Source of the DNA: Pukyongia sp.
GTDB taxonomy: Bacteria > Bacteroidota > Bacteroidia > Flavobacteriales > Flavobacteriaceae
DNA length: 64,000 nucleotides
Direction: 5' to 3'
Assembly (NCBI GenBank): GCA_030148705.1
Contig: JASBSY010000018.1
Span: 62,001 to 126,000 of the forward strand
Below the pieces are notes generated by a model. The model saw only the letters and a list, made by a program, of their open reading frames with translations. It did not search any database and had not been told where the DNA came from. Below are positions 4,962-10,433 of the stretch, piece after piece. A program made the position numbers and the translations under genes. Position 1 is the first letter of the stretch. Every line of letters starts with the position of its first letter.

Positions 4962-6452
4962 TTATTCCCAATCCGGCATAAAGGCATTTTCAAAGAGCAG
5001 GTCTCTGCTGTCTTCAAGGATTTCTATCGAATATACGTTCCGTTGAGATATTCCGTCATTCGATGTATTGGTGAAAATCACGAAGGCTTCATTTGGAGAG
5101 AATATTGGCTCAAGGTCATTGGTACCACCCGGTTTCTCATCTCCCGAGACATCAATGGTTGTTCCGGCTACCATATCGTAAATAAACATCCTTGAATCCA
5201 GTCTTCGATATGTGGCAGCCTCGAAGCCCGTAACATCGTAAGCATAAAGGATCTGTTGGTTGGTTACCGACAAGCTCAAACCACTAACGGCTCCATCGAC
5301 ACCGGATAATATGGTGTCTTGTACATTGCCATTAAAATCTATAGTAAAGATTTCAACATCGTAACCGTCCAGGTTGTTTGTTTTAAGAACGATAAGATTG
5401 GTATTCTCACTAACTGCGACCTCAGAAATCAGGGAACCATCGGGAGTTTGATATACCAACTGTACCGACTGGCCATTGGTTGTAATCCTGTATAATTTAT
5501 CAAACTGCGGGAAATAGATTCTGTCTGTATCGGCCGGCCAGGAGAAATTGATCTCGTTTAAGTTAAAGCCGTTAGGCTTGAAAGTGGAAGTCACCTGGAA
5601 CTTTTCGCTTCCGTCCCTGTTCATGGTAAATATATCAACATCGGCTCCATTACTTTGCAAATAAGCAATCTTGTTACCTGCCACATGTCGTCGCGGTCTG
5701 TAACTATTAACCTCCTGTGAGGTCAATTGGAATTCATTTCCTTCTTCGTCTGCCGAAAATATAACATTGTTTTCCCCAATTTTTCGTACAAAAAGGAACC
5801 GATTATCAACCGGGGCTTCCATTACTTCAAAAGTTCCTATCGGACTAATTACCGGGTCATTTATATCGTCGGAAGCGGTTACCTGCCAGAAATATTTCGC
5901 TCCCAGCATTAGCGGGGAATAAGTAAGTGTAGTATCGGTTAGTTCTTCGAATAGCAGCACATCATTGTTCTGATCGTTCCTCAATTCGAGTGTATATTCC
6001 AGAGGATCCCCTTCAGGATCGACCGAAGTCCAACTAAAAACAGCTTCAATACTTGGCAATACTTCATTCTCTTCGGGTGAAAGTAGAACGGGAGCAGATG
6101 GTGGCCTGTTGTTAGCCGTAGAGACCAGCAATTCGAAAACGACGTTACTGGTGGCATTTCCATTTATTGTGGCCGGTTCGAAATCGGCGAGATAGCCGTC
6201 TTTTTTAGCCTGAACACTATAATCACCAACTGCGATATCGTTAATCGTGAAACGGCCCTGGTCATCGGTGAATACGGTACTTGAAACCGGATCGGTCGAT
6301 ATTTTAACGTCTGCCAGCGGTTCATTTGTTCCCGATGCCACAACCTGTCCTTTTAGCGTACCAAACTCATTTTCGCTAATTTTATCTTCATTACAGGAAA
6401 ACAAAAGTATCAATACCACTCCTATTAACTTTACATTTAAAAACCTTTCCAT
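4962..6452 (-). CDS. Curli-operon lipoprotein: carboxypeptidase-regulatory + FN3-like + TolB-type beta-propeller
   Basis: A 496-residue lipoprotein with its lipobox LLFSC at Cys20. The order of domains is a carboxypeptidase regulatory-like beta-sandwich at about 30-110 (TLKGQVVASGTNEPL), then a fibronectin III-like domain at about 115-215 that begins RPPSAPVLLSP. A C-terminal region at about 220-496 contains repeated blades of the type IAYLQSNGADVDIFTMN, as in TolB/PD40 propellers. It starts 10 bases after csgG, so it is the last gene of the curli operon. It has no E. coli counterpart. An accessory role at the outer membrane, such as fibre anchoring or quality control, is my inference from position and lipidation. 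Confidence 0.8.
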   Translation of the reverse strand: MERFLNVKLIGVVLILLFSCNEDKISENEFGTLKGQVVASGTNEPLADVKISTDPVSSTVFTDDQGRFTINDIAVGDYSVQAKKDGYLADFEPATINGNATSNVVFELLVSTANNRPPSAPVLLSPEENEVLPSIEAVFSWTSVDPEGDPLEYTLELRNDQNNDVLLFEELTDTTLTYSPLMLGAKYFWQVTASDDINDPVISPIGTFEVMEAPVDNRFLFVRKIGENNVIFSADEEGNEFQLTSQEVNSYRPRRHVAGNKIAYLQSNGADVDIFTMNRDGSEKFQVTSTFKPNGFNLNEINFSWPADTDRIYFPQFDKLYRITTNGQSVQLVYQTPDGSLISEVAVSENTNLIVLKTNNLDGYDVEIFTIDFNGNVQDTILSGVDGAVSGLSLSVTNQQILYAYDVTGFEAATYRRLDSRMFIYDMVAGTTIDVSGDEKPGGTNDLEPIFSPNEAFVIFTNTSNDGISQRNVYSIEILEDSRDLLFENAFMPDWE

Positions 6453-6462
6453 GATAAATTCG

Positions 6463-7869
6463 CTATTTGTTAGTTTTTAGTTTAGTTTTTTTAGAGCCGA
6501 AATGGTAATTGATCCCGGCGGCAAAAGTGAAATAAAAGTCATCTCTTCTTCCGCTGATCTGATTATCTATTTTGTCTGAAAACGTGGCATTCCACGCCCC
6601 GTTAGCTGTAAATGATATTCGATCCGATACGGCAAATTCCAGTCCGGCTCCCGCTTTCATTTGAAAGAAGGTATCGAATTTCTGCAAGTACAGAGCCGGA
6701 TCATTATCGGCGAACAGCATAAATCCGGGGCCGGCAAAAACATAAGGAGCAAGCCTGTCGTGCGGTAACAGGTTATATTCCACCAGAACAGATTCGCTAA
6801 TCCACCAATGGCTAGTCTCCTGGGTGGAATTCAATCTGAATATCTGTATGGATGTTCCAAGACTAAACCCGGGAAGGAACCTGTATTTATAACCTAATTC
6901 AAAATTGTAATCCACAATTCCGCTCGAAAAATCACCGTCTACATAAGCCACCCCTGCGGCTGCATTCATGGTATGTCTGTAGTCGTGTTTTAAGAATTCT
7001 CTTTCATAAAGTGCTGTGGAAGCTTCAAGTTCCTGTTCGAGCAGGTATTGATCCACCAGTTCTTTATTCTTTTCAGGACCTTCTGCTGTAGACCACAACG
7101 AATCTTTAATCCCTTCGAGAATAAGCACTTCAACTGCTTTTTCGATAGCTTCCTGTACTGCAAGCTGGGTAGGTTCGTTTTTCGTGAATCCGGTTTCGGC
7201 TTCCAGTAACTTCTGAAAACTCACGTATCGGAAAATGCCCACATCCACTGCCTGCGACAGTATGGTCTTCGACACATTCACGGTTTTTAAAATTTCTCCG
7301 GTAGAAGTAGAAACAGCTCGAAGGTATATAGTTATCCGGTCCTGCCGGTACTGAGACGAACCGCCTACCCCGAAATATCGGGCTCCCACACCACCGGTAA
7401 GGATGTTGGTATCGTAGGAGATTACCCCTCCTTCGAGCAACATTCCTGCGAAAAGCAAGGGACTCATTCGTTGATTTTGCTCCGAACTACCCAGATATTC
7501 CTGTCGGGTAGTTCGAATAATATTCCTTTCGTTAAGCAGGTTCTGCAGGTTCTCCCGCTCAATAGGTGTAAACCAGTTGGAATCTTCCAGTGCTTTAATA
7601 AGGATGGTAGTTGCGCCCTGGGTTACCGCAGTACTGAAGGTGCTTCCGGTTTCAATACTCTTGTACTGCCCGGTTTGATCCTTGAAATTATAAACCCCAA
7701 CTACGATAGGAGAAGCTGGGGCGGGAAGTTCCTTGAGAATACTGGTTAACTTTGTGTCTTCGGCAATCCTTGCTTTTTGGACGCCGGTTGGTTGGTTATA
7801 ATAGGCTCCGCAACTGCTTAACGCCAGAATTAAGAAAAGCAGTCCGGCTATTTGTAAAAACTTTCTCAT
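6463..7869 (-). CDS. csgG: Curli secretion channel CsgG with C-terminal beta-barrel-like domain
   Basis: A lipoprotein pore that exports curlin subunits across the outer membrane. The ATG at 7869 is preferred over one at 7890 because it places the signal peptide correctly (lipobox LSSC, Cys20) and avoids overlap with csgF. Residues 20-265 match CsgG closely: VYNFKDQTGQ, NLLNERNIIR, GGVGARYFG and LLEAETGFTKNEP. In the constriction loop the Phe is kept (Phe78) while the neighbouring Asn of E. coli is Thr. A helical linker at about 265-295 leads to residues 300-468, which are not in E. coli CsgG (277 aa). These read as alternating strands ending in INYHFG, like a small outer-membrane barrel. Confidence 0.93.
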   Translation of the reverse strand: MRKFLQIAGLLFLILALSSCGAYYNQPTGVQKARIAEDTKLTSILKELPAPASPIVVGVYNFKDQTGQYKSIETGSTFSTAVTQGATTILIKALEDSNWFTPIERENLQNLLNERNIIRTTRQEYLGSSEQNQRMSPLLFAGMLLEGGVISYDTNILTGGVGARYFGVGGSSQYRQDRITIYLRAVSTSTGEILKTVNVSKTILSQAVDVGIFRYVSFQKLLEAETGFTKNEPTQLAVQEAIEKAVEVLILEGIKDSLWSTAEGPEKNKELVDQYLLEQELEASTALYEREFLKHDYRHTMNAAAGVAYVDGDFSSGIVDYNFELGYKYRFLPGFSLGTSIQIFRLNSTQETSHWWISESVLVEYNLLPHDRLAPYVFAGPGFMLFADNDPALYLQKFDTFFQMKAGAGLEFAVSDRISFTANGAWNATFSDKIDNQISGRRDDFYFTFAAGINYHFGSKKTKLKTNK

Positions 7870-7873
7870 ACGA

Positions 7874-8242
7874 TTATCCGTTTGGAACAATTATCTGTGT
7901 TTGTTCACCCGTTAATATATCCAGAACATTGATTACTAATCCTTCGGTAGATTCGAACACCTCGTATTCGAAGTTTCCGGACTGGGACGTTCCTAACGGA
8001 GGAGTTCCACCTCCAAACTGGTTTGTGAACTGATTACCCAAACTACTATTCAATCCGGATAAATTGTCAAACCCGGTAAATGAATCATTTTCAAAAGGGT
8101 TCTGGGAGTTAGCCGAATTCAGAAGCCAGGTATAGTTAAAGGGATCTCCTCCAAAAGCCGGATTCACCGGGGTATACACCAGTTGCTGTCCAAAACTATA
8201 GCCGGAAAAAGTTAGAAATAGTACTAAGAATAACGTTCTCAT
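7874..8242 (-). CDS. csgF: Curli assembly factor CsgF
   Basis: A secreted protein that docks in the CsgG channel and couples subunit export to nucleation at the cell surface. The 122 residues begin with a Sec signal peptide cleaved near SFG/QQ at about residue 18. The mature N terminus, the part that plugs CsgG in E. coli, keeps the NPAFGGDPFN and LLNSANSQN pattern of the family. The C-terminal half (from about residue 65) is more divergent and ends TGEQTQIIVPNG. It sits between csgE and csgG, with 11-bp and 4-bp gaps. Confidence 0.93.
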   Translation of the reverse strand: MRTLFLVLFLTFSGYSFGQQLVYTPVNPAFGGDPFNYTWLLNSANSQNPFENDSFTGFDNLSGLNSSLGNQFTNQFGGGTPPLGTSQSGNFEYEVFESTEGLVINVLDILTGEQTQIIVPNG

Positions 8243-8253
8243 GATAATATAAG

Positions 8254-9036
8254 TTAATATGATTTTACAACATTCTTGCTCTCCTTGAGATTCTTAAAAT
8301 ATCTGATCACCCTGTTAAGTGCTTCCTCCTCCATCGAATCCATGTATTCGGTCTGTGGGCGAACAAAGAATTCCATCACGATGTCCTCTCCTACTTTCAC
8401 TGCGATCTGGGTGTTATTGGCAAGGGCAAGGCTCTCGATTATCGTCACGACCTTTGGCCCCATAATTTCCTTATTCCGGTAGTCTGTAGCAAATTTACTA
8501 TAAAAATCCCTTCCAAGACGGGTTTTGGTCTCTTCAAGTACCAATCCTTTTAATTCAATTCCATCACTGGTGGCAAACGCTTCATCTATATCACTATCGG
8601 GATTTGGCTTCTTATTGAGGATTATCTTCTGATCTCCTTCGGTATCATTCAGGACAACCCTGTCTTTACCTAGCAACCTGTCCTTTTCGTCATAGACCAG
8701 TAATAAAATTATCACCCGCTCATCTCCCGGCTTACTGGTGTAGGTCTTAACAAGATTCTTTATATCACCTCTGGAAAGAACAAGACGCCCTTTCTGGTCT
8801 TTTTTATTGCGCAGATCTGTTTTGGGGTCATGTCTGATTATAGACAAGACGAACCTAAGGCTCTGATCTATCTCTGTTTTATTATAAGCAGTTCCTGATA
8901 CATCAATGAATTCGGAATTGGGTTTGAGAATTATTTTAGCTTCAACCTGGGTATTGTACACCTGTGCCGTAGCAGGTACGGCGAATAACAATAATAAAAT
9001 TACCAGAACTGGTAGTATTATAATTCTTTTACCCAT
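8254..9036 (-). CDS. csgE: CsgH/CsgC-like amyloid-inhibitor domain fused to CsgE
   Basis: 260 residues, about twice the length of E. coli CsgE (129 aa). A signal peptide ends around ATA/Q at residue 24. Residues about 28-130 form an immunoglobulin-like all-beta module with the pattern VEAKIIL, VSGTAYN, then GRLVLSRGD and LLLVYDEKDRLLGKDR. This resembles CsgH/CsgC, which suppress curlin aggregation in the periplasm. Residues about 158-250 are CsgE: ELKGLVLEETKTRLGRDFY, then IAVKVGEDIVMEFFVRP, matching the conserved GLLLDHTVSSIGHDFY region. CsgE caps CsgG and loads subunits. The fusion would place anti-aggregation and loading activities on one chain. The CsgE assignment is firm, the CsgH-like one moderately so. 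Confidence 0.85.
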   Translation of the reverse strand: MGKRIIILPVLVILLLLFAVPATAQVYNTQVEAKIILKPNSEFIDVSGTAYNKTEIDQSLRFVLSIIRHDPKTDLRNKKDQKGRLVLSRGDIKNLVKTYTSKPGDERVIILLLVYDEKDRLLGKDRVVLNDTEGDQKIILNKKPNPDSDIDEAFATSDGIELKGLVLEETKTRLGRDFYSKFATDYRNKEIMGPKVVTIIESLALANNTQIAVKVGEDIVMEFFVRPQTEYMDSMEEEALNRVIRYFKNLKESKNVVKSY

Positions 9037-9039
9037 TCA

Positions 9040-9570
9040 TTACTGGCGTTGAAAATTTCGAATAATGACAGTCTGATTATTTCCCTGCATCGTAACCCTC
9101 AACCTGTCGGAAATTGAATTATTACCTATCCAGTACAGTTGCTGATTGGTTCCGGTTTGAATTACCTGACCCTCGTGATACAGGTTTAAACCATTTCCGA
9201 TGTCGTAAAATACATGGTTATTACCAAACTGAAAGACTTGTTCATTAATTCGGGCTGAATTAATATTTAAATATGTTTCGTTGTTATTTCCGTATTGATA
9301 GAGACCAACATTACTCTGAACAGAGCGTAGGTTGGATTCAAAACGATTATTATTTCCAATCTGCTGTACATAAACGGCATTGGAAACGGATTGATTAGTT
9401 GTTGTGGAAGAAACAATTTCGGAAGCGATAAGATTTAAAGGGACGGCCGTACTACCAATGGTAATACCTCTTGGCGTGGCGTCGACATTCTTATATGTTT
9501 GAGCCAAGACAGCTCCACCGGCGACCAATACAAGAAGAAAAACCAATAGTAACTCTTGTCGAATCTTCAT
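9040..9570 (-). CDS. csgB: CsgB-like minor curlin / nucleator
   Basis: 176 residues with a signal peptide ending AVLA/Q near residue 23. After a 40-residue non-repetitive segment it has about five irregular curlin-type strands with the Q-x-G-x-N pattern: VQQIGNNN, YQYGNNN, VFQFGNN, VIQTGTNQ and MQGNNQ. Repeat spacing is irregular, and the C terminus is basic and hydrophobic (VIIRNFQRQ), as expected of a nucleator held at the cell surface rather than the bulk fibre subunit. The CsgB role is inferred from position next to csgE and from irregular repeats. It starts 134 bases after csgA, beyond a terminator-like hairpin. Confidence 0.75.
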   Translation of the reverse strand: MKIRQELLLVFLLVLVAGGAVLAQTYKNVDATPRGITIGSTAVPLNLIASEIVSSTTTNQSVSNAVYVQQIGNNNRFESNLRSVQSNVGLYQYGNNNETYLNINSARINEQVFQFGNNHVFYDIGNGLNLYHEGQVIQTGTNQQLYWIGNNSISDRLRVTMQGNNQTVIIRNFQRQ

Positions 9571-9704: not shown

Positions 9705-10433
9705 TTAGAATCCACCATTGTGCTGGTTCACGATTGAAGCGTTACCTGCACCAAACTGAACTACAGTACTCATGTGTCCAAGACCGTGCTGATGCGTATA
9801 GCTAAAGTTGAATAATCCAACCTGAAGTACATCAGAGTCGTTGATTACACCATACTGCTCAGTCCACTGACCGTTTCCGATTCCAATTTGAAGAACGTCA
9901 GAGTCGTTAGCAAGACCGTGCTGATCAACTACACCCCAGTTTCCAAAACCGAACTGAAGAGAAGTAGAAGTATTCAAAGCACCTAGTTGATGAACACCAA
10001 CAGTGTTATCTTCTCCTACCTGAAGCGCATAAGAATCGTTAGCGATCCCTTCCTGAAGGATATCAGCTTCGTTATCTTCTCCTATTTGAACAACATCAGA
10101 GTCGTTGAATGCTCCGTACTGATCTACATCTGAATCGTTATCTTCTCCTAGTTGGAAAACATTTGAATCGTTAAGAAGACCTACTTGAGTTACATCAGAT
10201 TCGTTGGAAACTCCAATTTGAAGTACATTCGAAATGTTTGCAACACCAGTTTGGTCAACATCAGAGTCGTTGAAAGCTCCAAGTTGAACAACGTCAGAGT
10301 CGTTTACCCAGCCTATCTGGTTAACATCAGAGTAATTCAATAATCCAATTTGTAGAACATCAGAGTCGTTGAATTGCGCAGACGCTACTGTTCCGATCAT
10401 AAGCGCTAATGCGCAGAAAATCACTTTTTTCAT
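9705..10433 (-). CDS. csgA: Acidic curlin-repeat protein (major amyloid subunit)
   Basis: 242 residues: a signal peptide to ASA at residue 19, one Gln, then twenty uninterrupted 11-residue units (consensus N-D-S-D-V-x-Q-x-G-x-x) and a final Gly-Phe. Odd units have a hydrophobic residue before the Gln (LQ, VQ, FQ). Nine of the ten even units have a polar one (NQ, DQ, TQ, HQ, EQ), so the true period is 22 residues, matching two strands per turn of a curlin beta-solenoid. The mature chain has about 30 Asp/Glu and no Lys, Arg, Cys or Pro. The last quarter swaps Asp for His and aromatics (HQHGL, NQHNG). It is the first gene of the curli operon. Confidence 0.88.
   Translation of the reverse strand: MKKVIFCALALMIGTVASAQFNDSDVLQIGLLNYSDVNQIGWVNDSDVVQLGAFNDSDVDQTGVANISNVLQIGVSNESDVTQVGLLNDSNVFQLGEDNDSDVDQYGAFNDSDVVQIGEDNEADILQEGIANDSYALQVGEDNTVGVHQLGALNTSTSLQFGFGNWGVVDQHGLANDSDVLQIGIGNGQWTEQYGVINDSDVLQVGLFNFSYTHQHGLGHMSTVVQFGAGNASIVNQHNGGF
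9714..10373 (-). repeat. Twenty 33-bp tandem coding units in csgA
   Basis: The repeats of the curlin protein are visible in the DNA as degenerate 33-bp units. The plus strand shows recurring blocks such as TCAGAGTCGTTGA about every 33 bases. Twenty units times 33 bp fill the span exactly, with no insertion or deletion breaking the register. Confidence 0.85.

Follow-up and report, generated by a model that had tools for sequence, protein, structure and literature searches.

The curli cluster of Pukyongia sp. encodes, as one protein, an Ig-like domain homologous to the curli inhibitors CsgC and CsgH and the export-cap protein CsgE. This fusion is real, is the usual form of CsgE in the sampled part of the bacterium's order, and is apparently undescribed. 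In the window (the whole stretch of 64,000 nucleotides that was analyzed), its open reading frame (ORF) occupies positions 8254-9036 of the minus strand, starts with ATG, and has 260 codons for 260 amino acids. The encoded protein consists, in this order, of a signal peptide, a seven-strand Ig-like domain, a flexible linker of ~27 residues, and CsgE. A first-pass annotation, made from the sequence alone, had reported a 260-residue protein at this position, which holds, although the annotation had not stated the minus strand. Its remark that E. coli divides the two jobs between two proteins is consistent with csgC and csgE being separate genes in that species. The parts of the fusion protein and the curli genes around it are as follows.

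8965..9036, minus strand: signal peptide, residues 1-24 (hydrophobic N-terminus in the sequence; cleavage before Q25 is inferred, and no signal-peptide program was used)
8644..8955, minus strand: CsgC/CsgH-like Ig domain, residues 28-131, seven predicted strands (AlphaFold2, Foldseek, NCBIfam CsgH model on relatives, hhalign)
8557..8637, minus strand: linker, residues 134-160, predicted to be disordered (pLDDT < 50 at mature residues 110-136)
8272..8553, minus strand: CsgE domain, residues 162-255 (PF10627, E = 1.9e-12)
9705..10433, minus strand: curlin (PF07012, E = 7e-21; net charge of -32 without the first 19 residues)
9040..9570, minus strand: curlin-like subunit gene with QxGxN-type repeats (weak match to the CsgA model, E = 0.042, far under the cut-off)
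7874..8242, minus strand: csgF (PF10614, E = 6.1e-22)
6463..7890, minus strand: csgG with an extra C-terminal outer-membrane-barrel-like region (PF03783, E = 7e-69, at residues 55-268)

The order of the domains, the homology of each half to its family, the operon, and the wide conservation of the fusion are all shown. The CsgE half, which the first-pass annotation had called firm and placed at about residues 158-250, scores 47.8 bits against PF10627 and passes the curated cut-off of 25. With known CsgE it also shares the csgE-csgF-csgG gene order. It differs in that E. coli csgE has 390 bp with the stop (129 codons), and, as counted in a sequence alignment, the residue aligned with the curlin-contacting R47 of CsgE (PMC6050966) is Ala in the window protein.

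On the minus strand, the genes are ordered curlin, curlin-like gene, fusion gene, csgF, and csgG. Only 3 bases separate the curlin-like gene from the fusion gene and 11 bases the fusion gene from csgF, and csgF and csgG overlap. The host genome has a single CsgE and a single copy of the first domain, both at this locus. A search of the host genome with the Pfam CsgH and CsgC models gave no match, but the CsgH search was also silent in every control genome and hence carries little weight. The CsgG of the window is, at 475 amino acids, ~200 residues longer than E. coli CsgG; its C-terminal region matches PF13505 at residues 309-464 with a score equal to the cut-off of that family (28.7 bits), and there is a weak PorG-like NCBIfam match. 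A gene for a lipoprotein-like product (positions 4962-6452), which has a carboxypeptidase-regulatory domain and matches TolB propellers weakly, starts 10 bases past csgG on the same strand, and it is possible that it belongs to the curli operon.

The first-pass annotation had also described the first half of the protein (about residues 28-130) as CsgH/CsgC-like. This claim held, but only through relatives of the protein. Taken alone, the first domain of the window (~28-131) has no CsgC or CsgH match in Pfam or NCBIfam at E ≤ 1, and single-sequence searches with the window protein (Pfam, NCBIfam, and PDB sequences) returned nothing convincing for this domain, so that relatives were needed. A first-domain profile was built from 188 first domains, which were thinned to 85 below 60% identity and then aligned. 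The NCBIfam CsgH model (NF041112) matches 72 of these 85 non-redundant domains at E ≤ 1 (best E = 1.5e-12), and the NCBIfam CsgC model (NF007507) matches 40 (best E = 2.5e-7); the next family matches 3. Among Pfam models, Tafi-CsgC matches 26 of the 85 domains (best E = 9.8e-6), DUF1425 matches 12, and CsgH matches 7. The curated CsgH cut-off of 35 bits was passed by 3 of the 10 proteins that were scanned singly (L085, 43.8 bits; the free protein of L151, 39.5 bits; L030, 38.5 bits), and two others scanned in this way, L202 and L019, had no CsgH match. The window domain is linked to the family via relatives such as L047, L076, L060, L085, and L206 (48-56% identical), of which only L085 reaches the cut-off; L047, at 56% identity, scores 30.4 bits and stays under it.

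Comparisons at the profile level agree with this assignment. When the first-domain profile was searched against all PDB sequences, CsgC came out on top (2xsk, E = 4.3e-4; 2y2t, E = 4.9e-4), with the next match at E = 0.12. We also compared the profile with eight stand-alone proteins, namely two Rhizobium CsgH, five CsgH-like proteins of the phylum, and E. coli CsgC, and hhalign aligned the two sets over 101 columns with a probability of 98.8 and E = 1.2e-16. Five of the eight proteins had been found with the first-domain profile itself, and three had not; for the five, which are those of the phylum, fresh support comes from NCBI's own CsgH model, which also names them. In hmmsearch, 6 of the 8 stand-alone proteins, including CsgC, match the first-domain profile at 18 to 51 bits, against 6.8 bits for the best of 1,600 shuffles. 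The Rhizobium CsgH proteins score only 9.9 and 7.0 bits, and a single Rhizobium CsgH reaches an hhalign probability of 76. This match is no more than suggestive; the link is carried by the NCBIfam models, by CsgC, and by the set as a whole.

The predicted structure points in the same direction. The AlphaFold2 model of the first domain (input of 75 rows, the window and the named loci) has seven strands, a pLDDT of 93.1, and a pTM of 0.85. The published structures of CsgC and CsgH are seven-strand Ig-like beta sandwiches (PMC5135000, PMC4838910), and the sequence YDEKDRLLGKDR, to which the first-pass annotation had likened the ending of the domain, is indeed present in the fusion protein; in the model it runs from the end of strand 6 through the turn into strand 7, most of which it covers. 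Among 350,542 PDB chains searched with Foldseek, CsgH ranks third (2n59; E = 5.4e-5, TM of 0.69 by target) and CsgC seventh (2xsk; E = 1.3e-4, TM of 0.76 by target). A predicted fold unrelated to CsgC and CsgH had been named beforehand as an outcome that would refute the assignment; the assignment was not refuted. Ranks 1, 2, and 4 to 6 are, however, taken by unrelated, large enzymes and by factor XIII, which match over ~110 residues, and 59 chains match the model at E ≤ 0.001. Because Ig-like folds are common and unrelated chains stand near the top, the fold agrees with CsgC and CsgH but is not decisive by itself.

The full-length model has a mean pLDDT of 85.8 and a pTM of 0.49. Since the pLDDT of its linker (mature residues 110-136) is below 50, the prediction is one of two freely moving domains. 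Foldseek with this model places CsgH 12th and CsgC 20th, with no CsgE structure among the top 50 rows. Published CsgE has a three-stranded antiparallel sheet flanked by three helices (PMC6050966); the CsgE half of the model has strands at 173-181, 184-191, and 194-201 and helices at 149-164 and 205-230 (mature numbering), and the third helix was not seen.

An alternative explanation is that the first domain is a generic Ig-like domain that resembles CsgC and CsgH by convergence of fold only. In favor of it are the many unrelated chains that match the model, the failure of the window domain alone to match any relevant family, and the Rhizobium CsgH scores barely above those of shuffles. Against it, the profile evidence is specific to CsgH and CsgC, the hhalign E value is very low, and, beyond the family and order of the window, only 5 of 395 genomes match the profile, always in a gene that adjoins curlin genes. 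We consider convergence very unlikely. The homology of the first domain to CsgC and CsgH is shown by the combination of family models on the 85 relatives, profile-profile comparison, and the search of the PDB with the predicted structure.

The domain is nevertheless neither protein in the strict sense. According to Taylor 2016, CsgC is recognized by a CxC motif and CsgH by a distant pair of cysteines that form a disulfide (PMC4838910). None of the 85 first domains has two cysteines, 6 have one, and the mature window protein has no cysteine at all. In the absence of a cysteine pair, the domain is by this criterion neither CsgC nor CsgH proper, and we therefore call it CsgC/H-like. With CsgH, the alphaproteobacterial curli inhibitor (R. 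palustris 2N59; NF041112/PF21112), it shares the seven-strand Ig-like fold, profile homology, location in a curli operon, and, in most members of the first-domain family, a positive beta3-beta4 face; in contrast to CsgH, which is a separate protein with its disulfide, the window domain lacks cysteines and is joined covalently to CsgE. With CsgC (E. coli 2XSK/2Y2T; PF10610), it shares the fold and the profile match, but it lacks the CxC motif, and E. coli csgC is a separate gene after csgA.

Strands beta3-beta4 of CsgC and CsgH carry a positive patch, and charge mutations cost these proteins activity (PMC5135000, PMC4838910). Across the 85 first domains, the net charge of beta3-beta4 is positive in 60, zero in 17, and negative in 8 (median of +2), and the median charge of the rest of the domain is -3; the rows of this comparison are related, so that its small P value is not a true probability. 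Inhibitors were also reported to have a pI more than 2 units above that of the curlin subunit (Taylor 2016, PMC4838910). The first domain of the window has a pI of 9.4, versus 4.1 for the first curlin (9705-10433) and 8.3 for the second, curlin-like one, and the two-unit difference is thus reached only against the first. In 21 of 66 loci the pI of the first domain exceeds that of its curlins by more than 2 units, and in 54 of 66 by any amount. With a median pI of 5.6 over the 85 domains, the electrostatics are not uniform.

The fusion is not peculiar to this genome. Eighty-eight of the 397 genomes of the window's family match the fusion protein at E ≤ 0.001, although two of these (G498 and G686) are weak and probably unrelated matches in 929-amino-acid frames and a few others are partial. 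This count rules out a chance open frame as the source of the fusion gene, and an assembly error was set aside on the same grounds as the rival readings. Scanning contigs turned up 162 confirmed places, and the 80 best were retained. The kept loci include Altibacter, Aequorivita, Aureitalea, Aquimarina, Maribacter, Winogradskyella, Olleya, and Myroides, as well as bins titled Flavobacteriaceae, Flavobacteriales, Bacteroidia, or Bacteroidetes. Stop-to-stop frames at 207 loci, duplicates included, contain the first domain and CsgE in 170 cases, CsgE alone in 28, the first domain twice and CsgE in 7, the first domain alone in 4, and CsgE in two pieces in 2. The gene context is equally constant. 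Among the 72 of 80 named loci that have an ATG-started fused ORF (the other 8 were left out), the nearest recognized gene within 300 bases is curlin upstream in 69 and CsgF downstream in 69, and CsgG lies downstream in all 72.

The first-pass annotation had proposed a survey of Bacteroidota CsgE proteins for the fusion. In a sample of 395 genomes of the phylum, we detected CsgE in 41 and the first domain in 21, all of them among the 41. Sixteen of the CsgE genomes belong to the window's family or order (f1, f2), and in every one of them the domain precedes CsgE, in one frame in 14 and in split frames in 2 (G316 and G324). Within the sample, the fusion is therefore the rule for CsgE of this family and order. 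The first-domain profile found no such domain within the CsgE protein of the 25 other CsgE genomes. Five of these (G166, G387, G195, G309, and G344), which are the matches outside the family and order mentioned above, have instead a free first-domain gene, in the order csgE-csgF-csgG-curlin(s)-free gene; in E. coli and Rhizobium, csgC and csgH likewise adjoin curlin genes. These five loci encode six free proteins, all of which score above the NCBI CsgH cut-off (36.6 to 61.5 bits). The remaining 20 of the 41 CsgE genomes yielded neither a fused nor a free domain; at most 11 candidates were scored per genome, and absence is thus not shown. Because the domain and CsgE are fused here and separate in the same cluster elsewhere (a Rosetta-stone pattern), we suggest that inhibitor and CsgE work together.

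The number and arrangement of copies vary. In Maribacter antarcticus, a free 131-amino-acid CsgH-like copy (L151:2585-2980) lies between a curlin-like gene and the fused csgE; a tblastn search of 72,556 plasmids with this protein returned 3 records, each annotated csgH and weak (E of 0.2 to 4). In Olleya, Lutibacter, and their kin, frames of ~400 amino acids carry the domain twice before CsgE (L123, L140, L142, L146, L147, L159, and L164). Two consecutive free CsgH-like frames follow the curlin genes at L229 (7319-7762 and 7766-8218). Two full fused csgE genes occur within one genome in G742, in G735, and at L074 and L076, which share one contig. Genome G692 has a fused csgE and, on a separate contig, curlin followed by a free CsgH-like gene (L231:2483-2965), whose protein fails the CsgH cut-off (19.0 bits).

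We also considered a hidden copy of the domain in CsgE of other families, and rejected it for the three N-terminal parts tried (L040, L019, and L005), which mismatch the profile (hhalign probabilities of 4.1, 0.2, and 0.2). In f24, another family of the phylum, CsgE has a LysM domain (PF01476) at its N-terminus, over the cut-off in 3 of 5 proteins scanned (L002, L005, and L014), below it in L011, and not found in L003. Possibly, the cap is anchored to peptidoglycan in that family.

In some genomes of a related genus, to which G316 belongs, the fused frame is broken. The first domain is present in 47 of 199 genomes of this genus, and in 17 of them its open frame is just 134 to 179 amino acids long. 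Together with G324, a member of the same genus from the phylum sample, these make 18 frame-split genomes; of 20 split loci, L277 and L263 repeat L246 and L026, which leaves 18 (L026, L027, L246, L249, L251, L254, L255, L264, L266-L270, and L272-L276). In all 18, the frame of the domain enters a run of exactly ten A's followed by G (A10-G) and meets a stop 0 to 10 codons on, and CsgE resumes in the -1 frame. The zero frame at the junction reads AAA AAA AAG, which is A_AAA_AAG in the phase of the E. coli dnaX frameshift site; runs of nine A's are also known to slip in transcription (PMC5009743). We found no A ≥ 9 run in the linker of the window itself. Over-representation of such runs in linkers was, however, seen among other fused genes, where 9 of 15 runs fall in the linker, 12.9 of 104.8 kb (150 distinct of 170 fused frames, without tandem frames; the 15 runs are those in the domains or the linker), although linkers are lysine-rich. 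In a CsgE tree, the split genes fall into one supported group of 21 (support of 96/90), together with three genes (L031, L245, and L278) that are in frame and still have A10 or A11 at the junction. Outside this group, in-frame L247, L261, and L281 carry A9 or A10 at the same place (four duplicate loci, L277, L263, L220, and L222, were left out of the comparison of tree and junctions).

These split genes could be due to ordinary gene fission or to sequence error, without any recoding, and this remains a possible explanation. Homopolymers are error-prone, there is no RNA or protein evidence of both products, and a possible start codon (ATG, GTG, or TTG) comes first just after the junction in 10 of 18 split CsgE frames. 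No conserved RNA structure was found downstream of the A10 site in the 15 of 18 split genomes that were folded (-0.3 kcal/mol; minus-strand L027, L246, and L273 were omitted). On the other hand, every one of the 18 genomes has exactly A10-G at the junction, at least four of these genomes consist of a single contig (G316, G877, G871, and G904), and only one other run of A ≥ 9 occurs in 48,192 nt of ATG-started ORFs of ≥100 codons at the split loci. CsgE always lies in the -1 frame and is intact, with a mean amino acid identity of 78% versus 45% (0.45) at four-fold sites. No signal peptide was seen on the split CsgE frame, and 8 of 18 such frames have no ATG, GTG, or TTG up to ~10 codons into the domain. 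It is thus possible, as an inference made without RNA or protein data, that the A10-G site recodes and that one gene yields both free inhibitor and inhibitor-CsgE. The site would then share with dnaX-type -1 frameshifting, or with poly-A transcriptional slippage, the A_AAA_AAG in dnaX phase within A10 and a zero-frame stop soon after; it differs from dnaX in that no conserved downstream structure was found and in its inferred products, a bare inhibitor domain and one joined to CsgE. The lack of downstream RNA structure favors polymerase slippage over a structured ribosomal signal but does not decide between them.

Taking these observations together, we consider it likely that the protein is a periplasmic two-domain chaperone, in which a CsgC/CsgH-homologous Ig domain is joined by a flexible linker of ~27 residues to CsgE; its inhibition of curlin, its assembly into a cap, and the handover are inferred. 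The claim of the first-pass annotation that the domain stops curlin from polymerizing and hands it to the export cap likewise remains an inference from homology and known parts. We hypothesize that the Ig domain would make weak, charge-guided contacts with unfolded curlin via its positive beta3-beta4 face and stop nucleation as CsgC and CsgH do, while the CsgE half would assemble as a cap under CsgG. The linker would then hold up to nine inhibitor domains beside the export vestibule, and unfolded curlin would be met and held there by the inhibitor on the flexible arm of each CsgE of the cap. Curlin would thereby be kept disordered near the pore, and not by an inhibitor that diffuses freely. 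In the model for E. coli, in contrast, freely diffusing CsgC keeps CsgA disordered, CsgG binds the N-terminal tag, and CsgE then takes over (PMC7217966). The fusion would fix the ratio of inhibitor to cap at 1:1, from which the clade with the A10 frame break may escape by also making free inhibitor. Points against this proposal, besides the missing cysteine pair, the uneven electrostatics, and the CsgE genomes without a detected domain, include the stoichiometry. CsgC is active down to 1:1000 and CsgE at 1:1 (PMC5135000), and since CsgC works at 1:100 to 1:1000 (PMC4838910), a 1:1 fusion is not obviously needed.

It could also be that the Ig domain is a true homologue of CsgC and CsgH that is no longer an inhibitor and serves as a structural arm docking CsgE to CsgG, to peptidoglycan, or to the extra region of CsgG. 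The N-terminal LysM in place of the domain in CsgE of f24 makes an anchoring role conceivable, and the first domain is not uniformly basic. However, the free copies follow curlin genes in the manner of csgC and csgH, one lineage keeps at A10 a separate frame for the free domain, which would be useless as an anchor, and 60 of the 85 domains retain a positive beta3-beta4 face. We therefore regard a purely structural arm as unlikely and retain the two-domain chaperone as the preferred reading. A bolder version of this reading, toward which we lean only slightly, is that the window's order uses a tethered inhibitor in the pore cap and that the balance of free and tethered inhibitor is tuned by the number of fused domains (one, or two in tandem as in Olleya), by an additional free copy as in Maribacter antarcticus, or by recoding at A10-G in a single genus; both the anti-amyloid activity and the recoding are inferred.

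Earlier surveys came close to this protein. Taylor 2016 found CsgH-like sub-families in Bacteroidetes by PSI-BLAST (PMC4838910) and may well have counted some of these fusion proteins, but the words fused, fusion, and domain are absent from the main text of that paper. We found no description of a CsgC/H-CsgE fusion or of a curli frameshift in the open-access literature that was searched, nor a case of a recoding site that sets the ratio of free to tethered amyloid inhibitor; subscription papers and preprints were outside the scope of the search for the fusion and the frameshift. Dueholm 2012 reported csgC to be missing from all of their Bacteroidetes genera (PMC3521004), and the fusion points to the location of part of the inhibitor that Bacteroidota seemed to lack.

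Two questions about curli export are open: by what means an amyloid subunit passes through the periplasm unaggregated, and whether the inhibitor and the export cap work in a single complex. The covalent fusion in 16 of the 16 sampled CsgE genomes of the family and order (two of them frame-split), together with the separate genes that the cluster has elsewhere, amounts to genomic evidence of joint action, and the fusion offers a single 1:1 construct for the study of handover at the pore. If the A10 site recodes, it would set the ratio of free to tethered amyloid inhibitor.
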